From Aquimonas sp. (GTDB lineage Bacteria; Pseudomonadota; Gammaproteobacteria; Xanthomonadales; Xanthomonadaceae): a stretch of 64,000 nt of DNA. Below, one piece after another: positions 8,357 through 53,552 of the stretch (its first letter is position 1; every line of letters starts with the position of its first letter). Made by a program: the position numbers and the translations under genes. Under the pieces are notes generated by a model. The model was not told the origin of the DNA, ran no database searches, and saw only the letters and a program-made list of their open reading frames with translations. Location: NCBI GenBank assembly GCA_022241605.1, contig JAKOMQ010000015.1:36846-100845 (forward strand), written 5' to 3'.

Positions 8357-9192
8357 TGGCGGTCTGGGCGATCGGCGATGTGCAGGGTTGCCTGGAGCCG
8401 CTGCAGCGGCTGCTTGAGGCAATCCGCTTCGATCCCTCGGCCGATCGCCTGTGGTTCTGCGGAGACCTGGTCAACCGCGGCGGTCAGTCGCTGGAGGTGC
8501 TGCGGCTGGTGCGCTCGCTGGACATCCACAGCACCGTGGTGCTGGGCAACCACGATCTCTCCCTGCTGGCGATCGCCGCGCGTCCGGAGAGCGAGCGCCG
8601 CCGCACCAATGCCGAGCTGCAGGCGGTGTTGTTCGCCGACGATGGCCCGGAGCTTCTGGACTGGCTGCGCACGCGCAAGCTGGTGCACGTCGACAACCAC
8701 CTCGGCTGGATGATGGTGCACGCGGGGCTGGCGCCGAAATGGACCGTGAAGATCGCGCGCGCCCGCGCCGAGGAAGTCGAGGCGCGCCTGCATGGACCGA
8801 ACCACGGCAAACTGCTGCGCAGCATGTTCGGCAACCAACCGGCCACCTGGAGCCCCAAGCTCGAAGGAATGGACCGGATGCGCGCGATCATCAATATCTT
8901 CACGCGCATGCGCTACTGCACGCCCAAGGGCACGCTGAGCTTCGAGAGCAAAGGCACGCCCGGCACCCAGAAGCCGGGGCTCTACCCCTGGTTCGAAGTG
9001 CCCGGCCACGTCCGCCGCGAGCTGCGCATCGTCTGCGGCCACTGGTCAACGCTTGGCCTGTTCCAGGGCTTTGGCGTGCACGCCATCGACACCGGCGCGG
9101 TCTGGGGAGGCAAGCTCACCGCACTGCGTCTGGACACAGAACTGCCGCAGGTGGTGCAGGTAGCCGGGCGCGTCGGCGGACGTCCTGAATGA
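8356..9192 (+). CDS. apaH: Symmetrical bis(5'-nucleosyl)-tetraphosphatase ApaH
   Basis: Cleaves Ap4A into two ADP and removes Np4 caps from RNA in bacteria where this has been tested. The 278-residue protein carries the metallophosphatase motifs in order: 'IGDVQGC' at the N-terminus, 'GDLVNRGGQS', 'LGNHDLSLL', a later histidine in 'VHAGLAP', and 'CGHWSTLGL'. It starts within the apaG stop (TGATG) and its end overlaps the next start by four bases, so it sits in a tightly coupled operon. Confidence 0.96.
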   Translation: MAVWAIGDVQGCLEPLQRLLEAIRFDPSADRLWFCGDLVNRGGQSLEVLRLVRSLDIHSTVVLGNHDLSLLAIAARPESERRRTNAELQAVLFADDGPELLDWLRTRKLVHVDNHLGWMMVHAGLAPKWTVKIARARAEEVEARLHGPNHGKLLRSMFGNQPATWSPKLEGMDRMRAIINIFTRMRYCTPKGTLSFESKGTPGTQKPGLYPWFEVPGHVRRELRIVCGHWSTLGLFQGFGVHAIDTGAVWGGKLTALRLDTELPQVVQVAGRVGGRPE

Positions 9193-9770
9193 ATCTCCGA
9201 CGGGTCCTCGCCGTGCTGGGTCTCGGCTGCCCTGTGCTGGTGCCTGCACAGGCGCACGCGGAGACTCCTCCGAGCGAAGTCGAGCGCGTCGCCGAACACG
9301 GGCTGGTTGAAGGTGACGCGCACTCCGCTGAAGACCACGACCCACCAGACCATGAGGCGCTGGTCGACCCGCGCCTGCGCGCCGTGCTGGAAGCCGAAGG
9401 CCTTGAGTACACGGTCGGGCACGGCGGCGATCTGGAGGTGTTGATCCGTTTCAGCGACGATTCGCGCAGCCAGTTCGTGCGCCTGCAGTCCAGCACCCGG
9501 CGCTACCGCAATATTGAATTCCGCGATATCTACTCGACTGCTTACCAGTTCGACCTGTCGCGCGGCCTGGATCCGGCGCTGGCGCGACGACTGCTGGAAG
9601 CCAACAACACCTACACCGTGGGCTTCTGGGCCGTGCAGGACGACAGGGTCTTCAGCATCGCCCGGATCCCCGGCCAGGCCAGCCCGGCCATGGTGCGCGA
9701 GGCGATCCGCTTCGTCGCCGCCGAGGCGGACGAGTTGGAGAGGGAGCTGCTGGGCAGCGACGACTACTGA
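9189..9770 (+). CDS. Secreted YbjN-like protein of unknown role
   Basis: A 193-residue protein beginning with a signal peptide that ends near 'PAQAHAE', followed by an acidic, histidine-containing linker ('DAHSAEDHDPPDHE'). The rest (about 60-185) resembles the YbjN / type III chaperone-like fold: 'DPRLRAVLEAEGLEYTV', a beta-rich part, and 'LLEANNTYTVGFWAV'. YbjN proteins are called putative sensory regulators, without a defined reaction. The start overlaps apaH, so it belongs to the same operon, an addition to the E. coli order. Its TGA stop is supplied by the end of a dispersed repeat (9767 onward). Assignment to YbjN is by pattern only. Confidence 0.75.
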   Translation: MNLRRVLAVLGLGCPVLVPAQAHAETPPSEVERVAEHGLVEGDAHSAEDHDPPDHEALVDPRLRAVLEAEGLEYTVGHGGDLEVLIRFSDDSRSQFVRLQSSTRRYRNIEFRDIYSTAYQFDLSRGLDPALARRLLEANNTYTVGFWAVQDDRVFSIARIPGQASPAMVREAIRFVAAEADELERELLGSDDY

Positions 9771-9835
9771 GAGGGTGTCAAAAAACCATCCGCCTACTGC
9801 GGCTGCCGGTGGCGGGACTCCGCGGGCTCACTCAA
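9767..9835 (+). repeat. Arm of the dispersed palindromic repeat family
   Basis: Begins 'CTGAGAGGGTGTCAAAAAAC' and continues 'CATCCGCCTACTGCGGCTGC'. This closely matches the right arm (read on the minus strand) of the full element at 10159-10343. The first four bases contain the stop codon of the preceding YbjN-like gene. The opposite arm is not evident nearby, so this copy is partial or degraded. The right boundary is approximate. Confidence 0.7.
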
Positions 9836-10158
9836 GGCGAATGTGCCGAATGCAGAAGCTATCGGCGCTTGACGGGTCTTTGGTACGGATCGGCGGTGGT
9901 CATCGTCGCCACGGCCGCACCTTGGCTGCTCCTGCCGCCTCGTTCCGCCGCCGGACAGCTCGCGATGTGTCATGCGCGGCACACCTGGTGCAGTGATTCG
10001 CACTTGAGCGGACGTATCTGCGGCGTCTTTGCGCGGCTGTCAGCGTTCCTCATCCTCGCCATAGCGCTGCGATGACTCGTCGTCGCGCCTTGCCAGCCAC
10101 ACAAATCCGCGCGCAGCGACTGCCTGCCAAGTACGAATCACTACCCTAGCGGCTGAGC

Positions 10159-10343
10159 TCAGAGCGTGTGAAAAAATCCAGACGCCGTCGCGAGGGGGTC
10201 GCTGGTCGTTCGTGGCAAGGCGCGCTGCGCGAATTCAAGGAAGTTTGGCGGGCCAAATGACCGCAGGATTCGCGCAGCGCGCTGCCGCCACGAGCGTCCA
10301 GCGGCGGCCGCAGCAGGCGGATGGTTTTTTCACATGCTCTCAG
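10159..10343. repeat. MITE-like long palindromic element, full copy
   Basis: About 185 bases whose two halves are imperfect inverted copies. The left end reads 'CAGAGCGTGTGAAAAAATCC'; the reverse complement of the right end reads 'GAGAGCATGTGAAAAAACC'. Further in, both arms carry 'GCGCGCTGCGCGAAT', and the centre is 'TTTGGCGGGCCAAA'. The whole element could fold into one long hairpin. No ORF is inside. Arms or relatives occur at 9767, 36175, 49381, about 50984 and 51274. Ends are set by the extent of the match; a flanking duplication was not established. Confidence 0.8.
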
Positions 10344-34129: not shown

Positions 34130-34791
34130 TGCGCATCCTGGTGGCCGAGGACGATGCCGAACTTGCGGTCCGCCTGTGCGCCGCTCTGGCCGAGGCGGGC
34201 TTTGCCGCGGAGGCCTGTGCGGACGGGCGCGAGGCCGAGTTCCGCGGCGCTACCGAGGCCTTCAACGCCGCCGTGCTGGACCTGGGCCTGCCTTCGATGG
34301 ACGGGTTGTCCGTGCTCCATCGCTGGCGTGAGCAGGGCATCAAGCTGCCGGTGCTGGTGCTGACCGCGCGCGGCCGCTGGCACGACAAGCTGGCCGGCTT
34401 CAACGCCGGCGCCGACGACTACCTGACCAAGCCCTTCCTGCTCGACGAAGTGGTGCTGCGGGTGCGTGCATTGATCCGCCGCTCCAGCGGCCACGCCAGC
34501 CCGGTGATCGAATGCGGGCCACTGAGCCATGACGTCAACAGCGGCCGCTTCGCGCTCGACGGCGCCAGCCTGGGGCTCACCGCGCAGGAGTCGCGCATCC
34601 TCGGCTACCTGCTGCACAACATCGGCCGCATCGTCAGCCGCGGCGAACTGGGCGAGCACGTCTACGAAGGCGGCCACGATCCGGACTCCAACGTCATCGA
34701 CGTCCTGGTCGGCCGGATCCGCCGCAAGATCGGCCCCGGCCTGCTGCACACCCATCGCGGCCAGGGCTTCAGGCTGGAATCCGAAGCTTGA
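34129..34791 (+). CDS. OmpR/PhoP-family response regulator
   Basis: A 220-residue two-domain regulator. The receiver has the acidic pair at 8-9 ('VAEDDAELAV'), phospho-acceptor D51 ('AVLDLGLPSMDG'), T79 region 'VLTARG' and K101 ('YLTKPF'). A winged-helix DNA-binding domain follows (about 125-220, 'LTAQESRILGYLLHN', 'VDVLVGRIRRKI'-like 'IDVLVGRIRRKIG'). It lies between the small PepSY gene and the kinase gene with overlaps on both sides, so all three form one operon. It most resembles PhoP/QseB-type regulators; the specific stimulus is not evident. Confidence 0.93.
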   Translation: MRILVAEDDAELAVRLCAALAEAGFAAEACADGREAEFRGATEAFNAAVLDLGLPSMDGLSVLHRWREQGIKLPVLVLTARGRWHDKLAGFNAGADDYLTKPFLLDEVVLRVRALIRRSSGHASPVIECGPLSHDVNSGRFALDGASLGLTAQESRILGYLLHNIGRIVSRGELGEHVYEGGHDPDSNVIDVLVGRIRRKIGPGLLHTHRGQGFRLESEA

Positions 34792-36158
34792 GGCTGCCTC
34801 GCGCCGGCTCGCTGCACGGGCGTCTGCTGTGGGTGGGGCTGCTGGGCGGCCTGCTGGTCAGCCTGGGCGCCGCCTGGCTGCTGGGCGAAGCCTTCCGGAG
34901 CACCGCCGAGCGCGCACAGCTGCGGATCCTGGAGCAGGAGCTGGCCGGCCTTGTCGGTCGCATGGAGGTCGGCGACGCAGCGCAGCTCGAACTGCGCGAT
35001 CGGCCCGGCGACCCTGACTACCAGCGCATCTTCTCCGGCCGCTACTGGCAGATCGGTGACGAGGCCAGCGGCCTGACCTCGCGTTCGCTCTGGGATTTCC
35101 GGGTGCAGTTCGACTCACCGGCGCGCGCACGCGCGCAGCTCGACCGGGTCGACGGCCCGGCCGGCCAGCGCCTGCGGGTGCTGCGCCAGCAGGTGACACA
35201 CCCGCGGCTCGCAGCGCCGGTGACCGTCTGGGTCGCCAGCGACGTAACCCCGCTGCTGGACGACACCCGCGCTTTCCAGCGCTTCACCCTGATCGCCGTC
35301 GGCCTGCTGTTCCTGCTGCTGGCAGTGGTGCTGGCGGTACAGGTGCGGCTGGGCCTGCGGCCGCTGCGCCAGCTCACCGCCCAGCTGGCCGAAGTGCGTC
35401 GCGGCGAACGCGAGCGCTTGGGCGATGCGCGCCTGCCCGCCGAGCTCCGCCCTCTGGCCGACCATCTCGACGAACTGCTGGCCCATCACGAGCGCAGCGT
35501 GCAGCGGGCCCGCCATGCCGCCGCGGACCTTGCACACGCCCTGAAGACCCCGCTGGCGGCGCTGGATGCGGCCGCCCAGCGTCCCGGCCCCGAACTGGCA
35601 GACACCGTGCTGACGCAAAGCGCACGCATGCAGGCGGTGGTCCGTCGCCAGCTGCAGGGCGGGCTCGCCAGCGGTTTCCGCGCGCGAACCGAGCTGTTGC
35701 CGGTCGCCCGCTCGCTGATGGAGCTGATGCGGCGCATCCATGCCGAGCACGCGCTGCAGCTGGACCTGCAGATCCCAGACGAGCTGCGCGTCGGCTGCGG
35801 CGAGGAAGACCTGCAGGAGCTGTTGGGCAATCTGCTGGACAACGCCTGCAAGTGGGCGCGCTCGCGGGTCTGCGTGAGCGCCGGCTTCGAGACGGGCCGC
35901 GTATGGCTGCAGGTCGACGACGACGGCCCCGGCATGGACGCCGAAGGCACACGGAACGCCCGCCAGCGCGGCATCCGGCTGGACGAGCGGGTGCCCGGCA
36001 GCGGCCATGGGCTTGCCATCGTCGAGGACATCCTGGAGTCACTGCAGGGCGTTCTGCTGATGGAGCGCTCGGCACTGGGCGGCCTGCGCGCGCGGATCGA
36101 GTTCGCCACCGATGCGCAGGACCGTCCCGGAACAGCGGAGCCTGCCGCCGCCGGATGA
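34788..36158 (+). CDS. Membrane sensor histidine kinase
   Basis: Cognate kinase of the preceding regulator. It starts at TTG 34788, overlapping the regulator stop. The 456 residues comprise a first membrane helix (about 12-33), a periplasmic domain (about 34-165), a second helix (about 166-186), a HAMP-like linker, the phospho-acceptor H250 in 'DLAHALKTPLAAL', and an ATPase domain with the N-box 'NLLDNACKWA', 'DDDGPGM' and 'GSGHGLAIVEDI'. Its architecture matches PhoQ/QseC-type kinases. The periplasmic domain has no clear metal- or peptide-binding motif. A repeat arm lies 16 bases after the stop. Confidence 0.92.
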   Translation: MRLPRAGSLHGRLLWVGLLGGLLVSLGAAWLLGEAFRSTAERAQLRILEQELAGLVGRMEVGDAAQLELRDRPGDPDYQRIFSGRYWQIGDEASGLTSRSLWDFRVQFDSPARARAQLDRVDGPAGQRLRVLRQQVTHPRLAAPVTVWVASDVTPLLDDTRAFQRFTLIAVGLLFLLLAVVLAVQVRLGLRPLRQLTAQLAEVRRGERERLGDARLPAELRPLADHLDELLAHHERSVQRARHAAADLAHALKTPLAALDAAAQRPGPELADTVLTQSARMQAVVRRQLQGGLASGFRARTELLPVARSLMELMRRIHAEHALQLDLQIPDELRVGCGEEDLQELLGNLLDNACKWARSRVCVSAGFETGRVWLQVDDDGPGMDAEGTRNARQRGIRLDERVPGSGHGLAIVEDILESLQGVLLMERSALGGLRARIEFATDAQDRPGTAEPAAAG

Positions 36159-36174: not shown

Positions 36175-36222
36175 CTGAGCGCATGTGAGAACCATCCGCC
36201 GACTGCGGCCGCCGCCCAGGCT
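36175..36222 (+). repeat. Arm of the dispersed palindromic repeat family
   Basis: 'CTGAGCGCATGTGAGAACC' then 'ATCCGCCGACTGCGGCCGCC' matches the right arm of the 10159-10343 element (minus-strand reading). It fills most of the 91-base gap between the convergent kinase genes. The partner arm is absent, so this is a solo arm. Confidence 0.65.
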
Positions 36223-36249: not shown

Positions 36250-39018
36250 TCAGATCCCGATGGTCGCTGCCGCCAGCGCACTTGCCACACGCTCTCGCTC
36301 GGCCGCGAAGGTGTCGGCATCGCCAGCCAGTGGGCCCTCAGGGCCGTAGGCGACAGCGAGGGCGTCCAGTTCGGCCAGTGCCTCGGCGCTCTGGCCGATG
36401 CCGGCCAGGGCACGGGCTCGCTGGAAGCGCAGGGCCAGAATCTGCGGATTCTCGGCACCGTAGATGCCCGCCATGATCCCGATGGTGAGTTCGAGCAGGG
36501 GCAAGGCTTCGGCAGGGCGGCCCTGCAGCATGCGGAGCTTGGCCAGCATTTCCGAGGAATAGGCGTGGTCGTAGCTGCCCTCGCCGAAGATGTCGAGCAT
36601 GCGCTCAGCCACCTGCAGCAGTGCCGGCTCGGCCGCGTCGAGCTGCCCGATCTCGGCGCGCACCTCGGCCGCCGCGGCCAGGCTGGCCCAGGTGAGCCCG
36701 GCGCGCTCGCCGAGCGCGGTCAGAAACACCGCATGCGCTGTCTCGAAGGCGGTGATCGCCTGCTCTGGCTGATCGGTGGCTCGCGCCAGCTGGCCGCGGT
36801 TGAACCAGATCTGGCCGCGCTCGGCGCTGCCGTCGGGGAAGCACTGCTCGGCCTCATCGAAGGCCTGCGCCGCAGCGTCCGCATCGCCCATCCTGCGCAG
36901 CGCATCGCCCATCCGCAGCAGCTGTGCGCCCAACAGGGGATGCCCCGCGCCGACCTGATCGCGGGCGATCGCAATCGCCCGCTCGTACAGGGGCCGCGCC
37001 CGCTCGGGATAGCCGCCCCGCCGCAGCAGGTCGGCGCGCACCGACAGCGGCCTGACCAGCCGCGCATGGCCGGGCCCGAGCGCCGCTTCGAGGCCGTCCA
37101 CCACACGCACGAACACGGCATCCGCCTCGTCCAGACGCGCCGACTGCTCCAAGGCCGAGCCCACCAGATAAAGCGCCGACAGGCTGTCGGGATGCTCCGC
37201 TCCCAGGCGCTCCGCCGTGGCCGCATGTACGCGCTCACTCACCGCCAGCGCCTCGGCGGCGTCGCCGCGCAGCAGGCGGGTCCGGGCAAAGTGCACCTCC
37301 GCCTGCAGGGTGGTGGGGTGTTCAGGCCCCAGCCCGGCCCGCAGCACCGGCAGGGCCGCCTGCAGCAGCGGCTCGGCCACATCGATGCCGCCGCGCTGCA
37401 TCTCTGCCGCTGCCAGCAGCGCCGCCACCTCGGCGCTGCGCATCGAGGGGCGAGCCTCGCTCGCTGCGTACTCCGCGCTCAGGGCCTGCAGGGTCTGCAG
37501 CGCCTGCGGCACGTCGCCCAGCGCCAGGGCCAGCTTGCCGAGGTCGGCAAGCACCTCGCGCCGCAGCGCCGGATCCTGCGCGAGCTGCGCCTCCGCGCGG
37601 CCAATGCCGTCGGCCACCAGCTCGCGCGGGCTGCGCGCCTGTACCCGCGCCCGCGCCACCGGGTCGCTTTCCTCGAACAGCGAGACCAGGAAGTCCTTGA
37701 CCAGCTCGGCGCGCACGGCCTGGGCGCGCGCCACCTCGGCCTGCCAGAGCGCTGCGGCCAGCCCGCCCAGCAGGGACAGCAGCACCACCGCCGAGGCCGC
37801 TACGCCCCAGGCATGCCGCTGCACGAAGCGGCGCATGCGATAGCCCACGCTGTCGCGGCGGGCGCTGACCGGACGCGAGTCCAGCCAGGCGTGCAGGTCG
37901 GCGGCCAGCGCGGCGGCGCTCTGGTAGCGGCGCGCCGGCTCACTGCGCAGGGCGGTGGACAGGATCAGATCAAGATCACCGCGCAGCTCGCGCGCCAGCC
38001 GGCGACGGTCCACCGCTGCGCCATAGGCAGTGGCCAGCTCAGCCGGTTCGGCCTGGGCCAGCGCCCGGCTGGCCGCCTCGCGGGTGTCCTCGGCCTCGAT
38101 TCCCGCCGCCAGCGCGGAGACGTCGCTGGTGTTGCGCCGGTGCGGCAGCCGGCCGGTCAACAGCTGGTAGCCGATGACGCCCAGCGCATACACGTCGGTC
38201 GTGGTACCCACCGGCCGGCCGAGGATCTGCTCGGGTGCGGCATAGCCCGGCGAGAGCACGCGCACGCCGGTGGCGGTAACGGTCTCGCCTTCGGTCTGCT
38301 CCAGCAGTTTGGCGATACCAAAGTCCAGCAGATGCGGCTGACCTTGCGCATCGACGAGGATGTTGCCGGGCTTGAGGTCGCGGTGCACCACCAGCTGGCC
38401 GTGCGCGTAGGCCACGGCCTCGGCGATCCGCGCCAGCAGGCGCACCCGTCCGCGCAGATCCAGCTGCGTGCGCGCTGCAAAGCCGGTGATCGGCTCGCCC
38501 TCGACGCAGGCCATGGCGTACCAGGGCCGGCCATCCGGGCTCATGCCGCCGTCGAAGATGTGGACGATGTCCGGGTGGTCGAGGCGGGCCAGGATGCTGC
38601 GCTCCTGCAGGAAGCGGCGCAGGATGGCGCGGGTGTCCATGCCGCGCTTCAGCAGCTTGATCGCGACCTGCTGCTGGTAGGCGCCGTCCGCGCGCTCGGC
38701 GCGCCAGACCTCGCCCATGCCGCCTTCGCCGATGGGCTCGATCAGCCGATACGGGCCGAACGCGCTGCCGGCGGCGGTTTCCCAGGGCGCTCCGCGCGAG
38801 GCATCGGCCAGCTCCGGCGCCACCCGCCCGAGCGTGGCGTCGAGCGGGCCGGCGGCGGCTTCGTCGGCGCGCAGCAGCGCGCGCAGCTCGCGGGCCAGTT
38901 CGGGTTCACTGGCATCCAGCGCCTCCAGCCTGGCCTCGCGCTCGGCCGGATCGAGCTCCAGCAAATCGCCAAACAGCGCGGACACCCGCGCCCATACGGC
39001 TGGATCCTTTGCCGCCAT
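36250..39018 (-). CDS. Membrane Ser/Thr protein kinase with long C-terminal helical-repeat tail
   Basis: A 922-residue PknB-type kinase. A helical N-terminal region (1-80) precedes the kinase domain: P-loop 'IGEGGMGEVW' (96-105), ATP lysine K121, catalytic 'HRDLKPGN' (D214), 'DFG' (D232) and 'GYAAPEQILGRPVG'. One membrane helix follows near 390-415, then about 500 residues of TPR-like helical repeats ('ALAVSERVHAATAERLGAEH', 'AVFVRVVDGLEAALGPGHAR') facing the periplasm. All catalytic residues are present. It shares layout and wording with the kinase at 57425-60094. Substrate and signal are unknown; the tail suggests protein binding. Confidence 0.9.
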   Translation of the reverse strand: MAAKDPAVWARVSALFGDLLELDPAEREARLEALDASEPELARELRALLRADEAAAGPLDATLGRVAPELADASRGAPWETAAGSAFGPYRLIEPIGEGGMGEVWRAERADGAYQQQVAIKLLKRGMDTRAILRRFLQERSILARLDHPDIVHIFDGGMSPDGRPWYAMACVEGEPITGFAARTQLDLRGRVRLLARIAEAVAYAHGQLVVHRDLKPGNILVDAQGQPHLLDFGIAKLLEQTEGETVTATGVRVLSPGYAAPEQILGRPVGTTTDVYALGVIGYQLLTGRLPHRRNTSDVSALAAGIEAEDTREAASRALAQAEPAELATAYGAAVDRRRLARELRGDLDLILSTALRSEPARRYQSAAALAADLHAWLDSRPVSARRDSVGYRMRRFVQRHAWGVAASAVVLLSLLGGLAAALWQAEVARAQAVRAELVKDFLVSLFEESDPVARARVQARSPRELVADGIGRAEAQLAQDPALRREVLADLGKLALALGDVPQALQTLQALSAEYAASEARPSMRSAEVAALLAAAEMQRGGIDVAEPLLQAALPVLRAGLGPEHPTTLQAEVHFARTRLLRGDAAEALAVSERVHAATAERLGAEHPDSLSALYLVGSALEQSARLDEADAVFVRVVDGLEAALGPGHARLVRPLSVRADLLRRGGYPERARPLYERAIAIARDQVGAGHPLLGAQLLRMGDALRRMGDADAAAQAFDEAEQCFPDGSAERGQIWFNRGQLARATDQPEQAITAFETAHAVFLTALGERAGLTWASLAAAAEVRAEIGQLDAAEPALLQVAERMLDIFGEGSYDHAYSSEMLAKLRMLQGRPAEALPLLELTIGIMAGIYGAENPQILALRFQRARALAGIGQSAEALAELDALAVAYGPEGPLAGDADTFAAERERVASALAAATIGI

Positions 39019-48988: not shown

Positions 48989-49384
48989 ATGCGCCCCACC
49001 CTCAAACGCCTGTTCCTGCTCGCGCTGGATCACGACGCCCAGGCCGAGCACCTGCCTGACGGCCGCTGGCGCACGCGCTGCCTGCACTGCCGGGCAAGGC
49101 TGGAGTTCAAGGCCGACGGCGAGCCGCTGGGTGCGGGCTCGCTGGAGCACGTGGTGCCGCAGGCCTGGTTCGGCAAGCGCGCGGCGGACGCGCTGTGCGC
49201 GCGGGTGGACCATGCGCCCAACGACGCCCGCAACCTGGCGCTGGCCTGCGCCACCTGCAACCAGTCCAAGGGCAAGGGCCCGGACGCCCGCGGGCCGCAG
49301 GACGCGCGCGCGCTGGAGGTCGTCACCGCCCTGCTGGAGCGGCGCCTGCAGCGCTGGCGGGATGCGCCGGGCTCGGGCGACTGA
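48989..49384 (+). CDS. HNH endonuclease-domain protein
   Basis: A 131-residue protein starting at ATG 48989. Zinc-site cysteines are in 'CLHCRA' and 'CATCN', the HNH core is 'LEHVVPQAWFG' with 'NDARNLALACATCNQSKGKG', and a helical tail follows. HNH domains cut DNA in many contexts; small stand-alone versions like this are common and mostly uncharacterised. No methyltransferase, toxin or phage gene lies beside it. Its TGA stop lies within the end of a repeat copy (49381 onward). Confidence 0.85.
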   Translation: MRPTLKRLFLLALDHDAQAEHLPDGRWRTRCLHCRARLEFKADGEPLGAGSLEHVVPQAWFGKRAADALCARVDHAPNDARNLALACATCNQSKGKGPDARGPQDARALEVVTALLERRLQRWRDAPGSGD

Positions 49385-49469
49385 AGGCATGTGAGAAGTA
49401 TCTGCCTGCTGCGGCCGCCGCTGGACGCCCCACCCGCTGCGGCGTCCGAGTTTTTTCACAGGCGGTGAG
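49381..49469. repeat. Short palindromic copy of the dispersed repeat family
   Basis: An 89-base element opening 'CTGAAGGCATGTGAGAAG', then 'CTGCCTGCTGCGGCCGCCGC', and closing with 'GTTTTTTCACAGGCGGTGAG', an inverted partner of the opening. An inner stem GGACGCC/GGCGTCC lies between. It looks like a shorter (internally deleted) version of the 10159-10343 element. The HNH stop codon falls within its first four bases. Confidence 0.7.
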
Positions 49470-51067: not shown

Positions 51068-51273
51068 CACGAAATTGATCCCTCACTCCGACGCTTGTCG
51101 TGGCCCCCCCGCAAACACCGGCTGTTCGTGGGAGTGAGCTTGCTCGCGACGCGCAGGGTGGGTGTGGGGCGCAGGCTGCAGTCGCCGGCAAGCAGGCGCC
51201 TTCCAAGAGCGCGAGCGGACGGATTCAGGTTTCTTGAAGAACGCCCGCACCGCTGCGCGGGATTGAAAAGCCC

Positions 51274-51325
51274 TCAGAGCGTGTGAACAAACCCAGATGC
51301 CGCAGCTGCAGTAGCCGGGCGGCTT
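51274..51325 (+). repeat. Arm of the dispersed repeat family
   Basis: 'TCAGAGCGTGTGAACAAACC' followed by 'CAGATGCCGCAGCTGCAGTA' matches the left end of the full element. It lies 15 bases from the stop of the convergent DUF418 gene. No opposite arm is evident. Confidence 0.55.
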
Positions 51326-51340
51326 CTATACCACCTGCTG

Positions 51341-52555
51341 TCAGGCCGTCACCGGCCTGCGCCAGCCAGGCCGCACCCCGCGGATGGCCCATCGCCACAG
51401 CCACTCCAGCGGGCCCAACCGGTGATGGCGCAGCCACAGCGCGGACAGACCGATCTGCAGCAGCGCGAGGGCCAGCGCGATCGGCACCGCCACGGCCGGC
51501 CCGATCCGGCCATACAGGCCCAGCCCGACTCCATAGAAGATCAGCCAGGCAAGCACCGACTGCATCAGGTAGTTGGTGAGCGTCATGCGCCCGGCCGGCG
51601 CCAGCCAGCGCAGCCCGGCATGCCAGAACGGATGGGTGGCCAGCACCGCGACCGCACCCAGATACCCCAGCGCCAGCACTGGCGCCGCGGCGAAGTGCAT
51701 CAGCGCGGCCAGCACCATGTGTGCCGGTGACGCCTGCGGCCCCATCAACCACCACAGCAGGGTGGAGCCCCCCTGCAGCAGCAGGCCGAAGAGCAGGCCG
51801 CGCTGCGTCAGCCGCAGCAGGTCCGCGCGATGCGACAGCGCATCCTGCAGCCAGCCAGTGCGTGCCAGCCACAGGCCCAGCAGGAAACAGCCGAGGATCG
51901 GCAGCACCGTGCCGAACAGCGAGACCGGCAGGTAGAGCCCCATCGCGAGCTGGTGGTTGAGCGCGATCAGGGGCAGGGGCGAGGATGAGGTGTGGCCGGC
52001 ATGGATCTCGGCGATGTCCGGCATGCCGCCACCGAGATCCATGCCCAGCATGCGGGCGATCGCGAAGAACAGGAACGGCCCCAGCGTGGTCGCAAACGCG
52101 ATCATCGCCCACAGCGCGCGGCCCGGCAGCCGCCACAGCAACAGCAGCAGCAGGCCCGCGATCACGTACAGGCGCAGCACATCGAAGCCATACAGCAGGT
52201 GCCCGTGCAGCAGCCCGATCACGGCCAGCACCGCCATGCGCCGCGCGAACACGCGCTCGAAGTGCTCGCCCAGCTGCTGCGAGCGCTGGAGCTGCAGCGC
52301 GAAGGCCACGCCGAACATCAGCGCGAACAGCGCGCGCGACTTCTCGCGCAGGAAGAACTCAAGCGCCCAGGCGACCGACCCATCCAGCGCGGCGAGCGGC
52401 AGGCCGGGAAGCGCCTCCTTGGGGATCGTCCAGCCCCAGCCGGTGAAGTCGAAGGCGCAGTGCACCACCAGAATCAGCACCAGCGCGAGTCCGCGCAGGA
52501 TGTCGATGGTCTCCTGCCGTTCGGCGGATGGAAAAGCGCTGTCGGGTTGGCTCAT
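51341..52555 (-). CDS. DUF418 family polytopic membrane protein
   Basis: A 404-residue inner-membrane protein from ATG 52555 (GGAG upstream); the track ORF extends into the neighbouring gene. It opens with the family signature 'RQETIDILRGLALVLILVVH', has about nine or ten membrane helices, and ends in the DUF418 domain (about 225-390) with 'LRWLAPAGRMTLTNYLMQS'. The fold is related to acyltransferase-3/OpgC-like proteins that modify surface or exported molecules, but no substrate is known for DUF418. It is followed by a 45-base gap from the secreted propeller gene on the same strand. Confidence 0.87.
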   Translation of the reverse strand: MSQPDSAFPSAERQETIDILRGLALVLILVVHCAFDFTGWGWTIPKEALPGLPLAALDGSVAWALEFFLREKSRALFALMFGVAFALQLQRSQQLGEHFERVFARRMAVLAVIGLLHGHLLYGFDVLRLYVIAGLLLLLLWRLPGRALWAMIAFATTLGPFLFFAIARMLGMDLGGGMPDIAEIHAGHTSSSPLPLIALNHQLAMGLYLPVSLFGTVLPILGCFLLGLWLARTGWLQDALSHRADLLRLTQRGLLFGLLLQGGSTLLWWLMGPQASPAHMVLAALMHFAAAPVLALGYLGAVAVLATHPFWHAGLRWLAPAGRMTLTNYLMQSVLAWLIFYGVGLGLYGRIGPAVAVPIALALALLQIGLSALWLRHHRLGPLEWLWRWAIRGVRPGWRRPVTA

Positions 52556-52604
52556 CGCGACTCCTCGGGAAGTCATCAGCATCCGCCTTTCCGGCAGGGC
52601 CGGC

Positions 52605-53552
52605 TTATGGCTCGAACCCGTCCTCAAAGATGCAGTCGTCATCGACCGCCGCGATTCGGCTGATGCGGCCTCCACTGTAGTGCGACAGATACAGGCTGCG
52701 GTCGGGGCCAAACTTGATGTCGTAGGGCGAGCCGGTGAACCCGGATCCGACATCGGTGATCTGACCCGGGGCATCGACCCGGTGCAGCGTGCCCGTCGCC
52801 TGCCGCAGCACCCAAAGTCCGCGCCCGAACGCACAGCCCGGGCCGAAGTCCAGCGCCACGCGCGACGGGAATTGCGCATAGCTCAGGATCAAGAGGCTGC
52901 CGTCGGCGGCAAAGACGGTGATCCGGCCATTGCCATCTGCTGCGAAGACGCGTCCGTCGGGCGCAATGGCAAGGTGGAAGGCCGTGCGGTTGTTCGGCAG
53001 TGTTGCGAACACCGTCGGCGCCTCCCCGGCCTCGCTGATCCAGATTTGTCCGGAGCCCGCGTCGGCGAAGAACAGGCGCCCCTGACGATCGAAGCGCATC
53101 TCGGAAGGGTTGGTCCAGGCCGTGGACGTCCACAGCTGCACAACCTGCTGATCGGGTCGAACCGCACTGATCGAGCCGCGCGTCGGCGAGGTCGAGTTGC
53201 CGCCGGTGAGGACGCTGCCCGGCACGCCGGACACCACGCCCAGCCCGTCGAAGACCACCGGATCAGGATCAGGTGTCTGCGTGTTTCCGTAGTTCTGGAT
53301 CGGCGCACCACCAGGCCCGATACGGATGAGAAACTGCGGCGCGATGCTGCCGACCGGCGGCGAGAGGTCGCGGCCGGCGTACAGGGTTCCATCCGGCGCA
53401 AACGCCAGAAACACGGGTCCCATCACCGGCTCCGCATAGGTGCTGACGGTGAAGCCGGGCACGGACTGGGCGGCGACGGGAAGCGAGGCCACCAGCAGGG
53501 CGGCCCACACTGCGCCGAATCGGGAAACCTGTGGCGCGCGGCAGGTGTTCAT
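52605..53552 (-). CDS. Secreted beta-propeller (SMP-30/NHL-like) protein with DGFE tag
   Basis: A 315-residue protein from ATG 53552 (GAGGAG upstream). The signal peptide ends near 'ASLPVAAQS'. The body is a six-blade-like propeller with repeated 'FAPDGTLYAGRDL', 'RFDRQGRLFFADAGSG', 'AIAPDGRVFAADGNGR' and 'KFGPDRSLYLSHYSGG' units, as in SMP-30/gluconolactonase and NHL families; no catalytic metal site is clear. It ends 'DDCIFEDGFEP', the C-terminal tag shared by many secreted proteins in this bacterial group. Ligand unknown. The tag suggests export or surface sorting, which is inference. Confidence 0.8.
   Translation of the reverse strand: MNTCRAPQVSRFGAVWAALLVASLPVAAQSVPGFTVSTYAEPVMGPVFLAFAPDGTLYAGRDLSPPVGSIAPQFLIRIGPGGAPIQNYGNTQTPDPDPVVFDGLGVVSGVPGSVLTGGNSTSPTRGSISAVRPDQQVVQLWTSTAWTNPSEMRFDRQGRLFFADAGSGQIWISEAGEAPTVFATLPNNRTAFHLAIAPDGRVFAADGNGRITVFAADGSLLILSYAQFPSRVALDFGPGCAFGRGLWVLRQATGTLHRVDAPGQITDVGSGFTGSPYDIKFGPDRSLYLSHYSGGRISRIAAVDDDCIFEDGFEP

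Follow-up and report, generated by a model that had tools for sequence, protein, structure and literature searches.

The near-palindrome described here is a true insertion element, since most of its orthologous empty sites carry one CTGAG and its filled sites two. It was studied in a stretch of 64,000 nucleotides (hereafter the window) on contig C63 of an Aquimonas draft genome (Lysobacteraceae, G000; 2.98 Mb, 75% complete). A sequence-only reading of the window had described a palindrome with inverted halves, which is real and whose limits are now refined to 186 bp with the ends CTCAGAGCGTGTGAAAAAATCC...GGTTTTTTCACATGCTCTCAG (Table 1). The window copy is laid out as an A-run followed by a GC-rich stem and a T-run, and folds at −129 kcal/mol versus −78 kcal/mol for shuffles (z = −11.5). 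The five other sites named there (9767, 36175, 49381, about 50984 and 51274) are all related to the element, and every copy in the window is located at, or just past, the 3′ end of a gene. At 9767, 49381 and 51341–51343 the end of the element coincides in part with a stop codon. Specifically, a gene that ends at 49384 has its stop in the CTGA with which the short form at 49381 starts, while the right end of the copy starting at 51273 holds the stop (TCA, 51341–51343) of the minus-strand gene 51341–52879. Beyond the right arm at 36175, a weak left-end remnant may be present near 36290.

Table 1. Location of the palindromic element, its parts and its related copies in the window.
Feature	Position	Strand	Basis
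Full-length copy in left-to-right orientation, with CTCAG at either end	10158..10343	+	sequence, genome search, fold
Left flanking/terminal 5-mer CTCAG (target copy)	10158..10162	+	sequence; empty-site comparisons of other copies
Right flanking/terminal 5-mer CTCAG (opposite strand CTGAG)	10339..10343	+	
Hairpin apex, GGAAGTTTGGCGGGCCAAATGACC region, with GGGAG...ATGACC motif kept across genera	10238..10265	+	
Solo right arm; CTGAG includes the TGA stop (9768-9770) of gene 9189-9770	9767..9812	-	
Right arm, 17 bases past the stop of gene 34788-36158	36175..36215	-	
Short form, 89 bp, right arm and inverted left arm	49381..49469	-	
Degenerate, probably short form; left end TTCAGAGCGTGTGAAA	50984..51063	+	
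Degenerate, probably short form, with CTCAG at 51273 as left end	51273..51344	+	

Other repeats were met in the same loci. A second family of about 155 bp, with the inverted ends GTAGTGATTCG(C/T)ACTTG, occupies positions 9990–10144 of the window and was also seen at L007, L086, L088, L091, L101 and L126, only in loci of the same genome; at L101 it is nested inside one of the palindromes, the ends of which lie 344 bp apart. A further dispersed repeat at 51118–51278 of the window opens with the REP-like CGTGGGAGTGAGCTTGCTCGCGACG and has many matches in G003 (Aquimonas voraii) and G002 (the other sister Aquimonas species). Additionally, the right flank of the element at L049 (about 1705–1760) holds a sequence of about 57 bp found at about 40 places in these two genomes (AACACGGATCAAGTCCC...GGCCTTGATCCGTGG).

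Genome searches led to a sizeable family and not to a few unrelated matches. The G000 genome yielded at least 40 full-length copies (83–100% identity), with further copies in other searches, and about 20 copies are present in each of the two sister species, including one on NZ_FNAG01000014.1 of A. voraii DSM 16957. The ends are conserved among the hits: with up to three mismatches allowed, the end motif CTSAGAGCNTGTGAAAAAACC was counted 141 times in G000 (2.98 Mb), 32 times in G002, 25 times in G003 and not at all in G001, and its reversed control has no match in any of these four genomes, which puts the family far above chance expectation. Mean identity between copies is 91% within G002 and 84% in G000, where the copies are more diverse. 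Two size classes were distinguished, a long form of 182–188 bp and a short form of 74–107 bp that retains both ends without the centre. No gene was found within the 182–188 bp element, and the length differences are not multiples of three. At L016 (1420–1688, G000:C43), a short element and a full-length one stand in tandem with one CTCAG in common, as if the end of one element had been used as target by the next insertion.

Concerning the wider distribution, a core-model search of the bacterial family placed the element in at least seven of 299 genomes and at least five of 54 genera, a lower bound set by the strict filters applied. The matching genomes comprise the three Aquimonas species together with G018, G046, G293 and G004, which hold relatives in few copies; the G004 copy has no CTGAG ends. 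Phages and E. coli gave no match, and plasmids a single one, namely a 171-bp homologue with the same ends on plasmid pAcX50e of Azotobacter chroococcum (67% identity over the full length). Searching Rfam returned no match in the window; the single match met otherwise, to a long-hairpin miRNA, was of a chance type and far under its gathering score. The literature covered, which excludes most subscription journals, held nothing relevant on palindromic repeats in Aquimonas.

Evidence for insertion comes from the comparison of filled and unoccupied orthologous loci across the three Aquimonas species. The empty site reads CTGAG/CTCAG in 11 of the 15 scorable insertions, and the filled site has the 5-mer on both sides. 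For instance, two unoccupied counterparts were found for the copy at L058 (G002): one lies in A. voraii, the other at a distance of 2 kb in a duplicated region of G002 itself, and each has a single CTGAG; single-CTGAG empty counterparts were also found for L057, L060, L070, L075 and others. The remaining four empty sites are one or two bases off CTGAG, which may reflect later drift, although at L069 CTGAG stands against TTGAA of G002 between very similar flanks, leaving room for a looser target. Nearly all insertions are species-specific, and only L081/L092 looks common to species. The pAcX50e homologue splits a thiolase-gene fragment at CTGAG; when its flanks are joined over one CTGAG the frame is restored, and the resulting peptide has thiolase matches that span the joint. 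The gene-less, dispersed and intergenic nature ascribed to the element in the sequence-only reading is thereby complemented by mobility, and its location near gene 3′ ends was borne out as well.

The target 5-mer is locked to the internal orientation of the element. Once the 78 full-length copies were oriented by their internal sequence, the flanks read CTCAG from left to right, barring point variants, and CTGAG at both ends was seen in none of the 78. A symmetric double-strand transposase offers no evident reason for such a lock. Outside the 5-mer no base of the target is conserved; guided targeting with a longer recognition site, as in the IS110 type, was judged unlikely, as no consensus extends beyond CTGAG.

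The TGA of the right-end CTGAG is the exact stop of the neighboring gene in 38 of 73 copies; the other 35 are intergenic and none lies inside a gene. Unoccupied CTGAG in the same loci falls on stops in 64 cases, between genes in 137 and in coding sequence in 585, all by the gene calls of a simple codon-usage script. Measured against this availability, the avoidance of coding sequence is overwhelming (p ~ 4e-40), while stops are modestly favored over intergenic sites (odds ratio 2.3, p = 0.003). The stop overlap could also be read beside most copies in G046, G293 and G018. Read from the right, the target is CTGAG, and hence a gene heading to the right end can keep its TGA stop. A target specific to stop codons was rejected, because the excess over availability is modest and the Azotobacter copy lies inside coding sequence; the target is CTGAG itself for the same two reasons. 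The location at stops thus follows largely from the CTGAG target and the loss of insertions within genes. For this reason, and because the better-pairing strand is not that of the abutting gene's mRNA and the U-runs are poorly conserved, the evidence gives no support to the suggestion that the element may shape mRNA 3′ ends.

One strand of the element pairs better than the other. In an alignment of 75 copies, 73 hairpin pairs were examined and 90.7% of the cells hold standard pairs. On the left-to-right strand the consensus has eight pairs fixed as G.U and none as A.C, and over all cells 657 G.U are found versus 175 A.C. This strand is the more stable in 74 of the 75 copies (mean −106.6 versus −85.5 kcal/mol), which are related and hence not independent events. 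A stronger control is given by four agreeing copies from other genera or the plasmid, such as those of G046 (−144 versus −112 kcal/mol), G293 (−121 versus −85 kcal/mol) and Azotobacter (−93.5 versus −68.9 kcal/mol); in G018 the asymmetry is missing in one of the two copies tested. Changes from A-T to G.U and from G-C to G.U both contribute, and strand-biased cytosine deamination was therefore rejected as the source, given the share of A-T to G.T changes. This is most simply read as a present or past need for one strand to fold as a single-stranded nucleic acid. The better-folding strand is not the one in the mRNA of the abutting gene, and local GC skew gave no sign of a replication-strand preference. 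The apex motif GGGAG...ATGACC surrounds a short variable stem in Aquimonas, G046, G293 and Azotobacter, and would allow tandem G.A mismatches. For the core by itself, RNAalifold returned a weak consensus (−11 kcal/mol), and compensatory changes exceeded shuffles modestly but did not exceed slid controls. Since this compensatory signal is weak, the argument is drawn from the G.U/A.C asymmetry and not from covariation.

A mobilizing enzyme was sought among Y1 transposases and among elements with the same ends. We read 16 Y1 loci with 1.5 kb flanks and saw no element arms, in incomplete drafts in which unlinked RAYTs are possible. The Y1 gene common to all three element-bearing species is bounded by its own perfect inverted ends GGGGTCAGGTTCACTT...AAGTGAACCTGACCCC, which are unrelated to those of the element, and linkage to a RAYT was rejected on these two grounds. 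Units with these bounds occur at L033, L155, L157, L158 and L159 in three Aquimonas genomes. Two near-identical Y1-transposase genes also lie in tandem at L031/L032 (G000:C39:183131-184109). G001 has Y1 genes and lacks the element, and no GTAG tag was found at the element. Concerning an autonomous parent, the end lists of the three genomes held no near-perfect end pair at insertion-sequence distance, and viral contigs, plasmids and phages held no autonomous element with these ends. Of the original description as a MITE or an oversized REP, the mobile, gene-less hairpin family stands, while neither a full-length parent transposon in the three genomes nor a RAYT or Y1 gene flanked by the element, among those read, could be demonstrated.

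Taken together, a fixed short target and orientation, the recurrence of the 5-mer at the far end and the presence of one structured strand resemble single-strand (HUH/Y1) transposition. We give about an even chance to a non-autonomous element whose single-stranded DNA is moved by an HUH/Y1-type enzyme acting in trans, as in IS200/IS605 and as has been proposed for REPINs. The moving species would be the structured left-to-right strand, on which the target is read as CTCAG; the enzyme, supplied in trans, would recognize and cut the hairpin, and CTCAG would double as target and end-cleavage site. Insertion at CTGAG in one fixed orientation leaves one CTGAG on each side. Insertions within genes would be removed by selection, whereas insertions that hit the last C-TGA-G of a gene could survive because the stop codon is kept, with a strong hairpin placed directly after the gene. 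What was observed is the copies themselves, their empty sites, the doubled 5-mer and the lock; the HUH-type enzyme, which the searches did not find, we infer. Apart from this missing enzyme, the lack of a GTAG tag, the Y1 genes of G001 without elements, the four empty sites off CTGAG, the G018 copy without asymmetry and the flat result of local GC skew count against it, and the terminal inverted repeats with a duplicated 5-mer suit a double-strand transposase equally. The latter would make the family a classical MITE, whose lost or diverged DDE transposase recognized inverted ends of about 20 bp and left a 5-bp duplication at a preferred CTNAG. Such a history agrees with inverted ends that persist in both the long and the short form, with the tolerance of internal deletions and with a 5-mer that is single where the site is empty and double where it is filled. 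However, symmetric ends do not predict that the center base of CTNAG is fixed to the internal orientation of full-length copies, matched variant duplications are absent, the three genomes and the viral contigs hold no end pairs at insertion-sequence distance, and the one-strand bias is left unexplained, so that we regard a classical MITE as possible but unlikely.

An RNA intermediate would account for the lock and for a target equal to the 3′ end of the RNA: the left-to-right transcript would fold, and a reverse transcriptase would prime at CTGAG via a 3′-terminal CUCAG. The retention of G.U and not of A.C pairs fits an RNA, yet single-stranded DNA tolerates G.T as well and thus RNA is not required; with no Rfam family to support it, this route seems quite unlikely. 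Selection by the host for terminators or mRNA stabilizers at gene ends, mobility being incidental, could draw on the stop overlap, which somewhat exceeds CTGAG availability, on the A-run, stem and T-run of the window copy, and on the report that YPAL may influence the stability of upstream transcripts (PMC2229807). Against it, insertions are almost never common to two species, the mRNA of the abutting gene has the worse-folding strand, about half of the copies are off stop codons, and runs of at least five A or T occur in just 45 of 75 left and 32 of 75 right ends, the U-runs being poorly conserved. We therefore find it very unlikely. Finally, the family could form a separate palindromic class, spread over two gammaproteobacterial orders and a plasmid, in which a single-stranded hairpin (DNA or RNA) is inserted at CTGAG in a specific orientation by an enzyme other than a RAYT or a DDE transposase; taken jointly, these propositions appear unlikely.

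Small palindromic repeats are common in bacteria, and what moves them, and whether their hairpins serve the host or transposition, is mostly not known. The present family adds clean evidence in the form of empty sites, an invariant 5-base target, an orientation lock and a measurable one-strand pairing bias, and it opens the question of single-strand transposition to direct tests in A. voraii DSM 16957, an environmental type strain that can be cultured. It also shows how insertion on a stop codon can be tolerated, since the target sequence itself preserves the stop.

Like REPs and REPINs, the REP doublets for which mobilization by RAYT/TnpA-REP has been proposed, as has single-strand transposition (PMC3116915), the element is high-copy, gene-less and extragenic and joins two inverted units in one hairpin, and its solo arms look like decayed remnants. 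GTAG REPs often give flanking ORFs a TAG stop (PMC3733652), much as the CTGAG of the element coincides with TGA. However, REP units measure 20–40 bp and bear a GTAG/CGTC tag, whereas the element measures 182–188 bp, ends in CTSAGAGC..., has no tag at the hairpin foot and has an invariant 5-mer target revealed by empty sites; a linked RAYT flanked by the repeats, as REPs have, was not found among the 16 Y1 loci either. The Stenotrophomonas TnpA-REP cuts REP DNA at CT (PMC8266576). In the IS200/IS605 family, ISDra2 inserts 3′ of the fixed pentanucleotide TTGAT (PMC2806898), and a fixed short target, a fixed orientation and hairpin-forming ends are shared with the element; the strand specificity of that family may likewise find a counterpart in the one-strand pairing bias, although the element holds no tnpA and its inverted ends span its whole length. 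Terminal inverted repeats and a target duplication are also features of DDE MITEs, but here the 5-mer is invariant and locked, and no autonomous element with these ends turned up in the three genomes, viral contigs, plasmids or phages. ERIC, NEMIS/Correia and RUP are similarly hairpins of 100–200 bp with inverted ends and a target duplication, but have TA at their termini (PMC2229807), where the element has CTSAG as termini and target, locked in orientation. YPAL/RU-2 of Yersinia, 168 bp long, is palindromic, mobile and intergenic with known empty and filled sites (PMC2229807), just as the element is; its duplications range from 3 to 26 bp, unlike the constant, orientation-locked 5-mer described here. 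Because the tag and the RAYT link separate it from REP/REPIN, and the variable duplication from YPAL, the element is filed under neither of these two nearest families and is described as a variant of the bacterial palindromic mobile elements.
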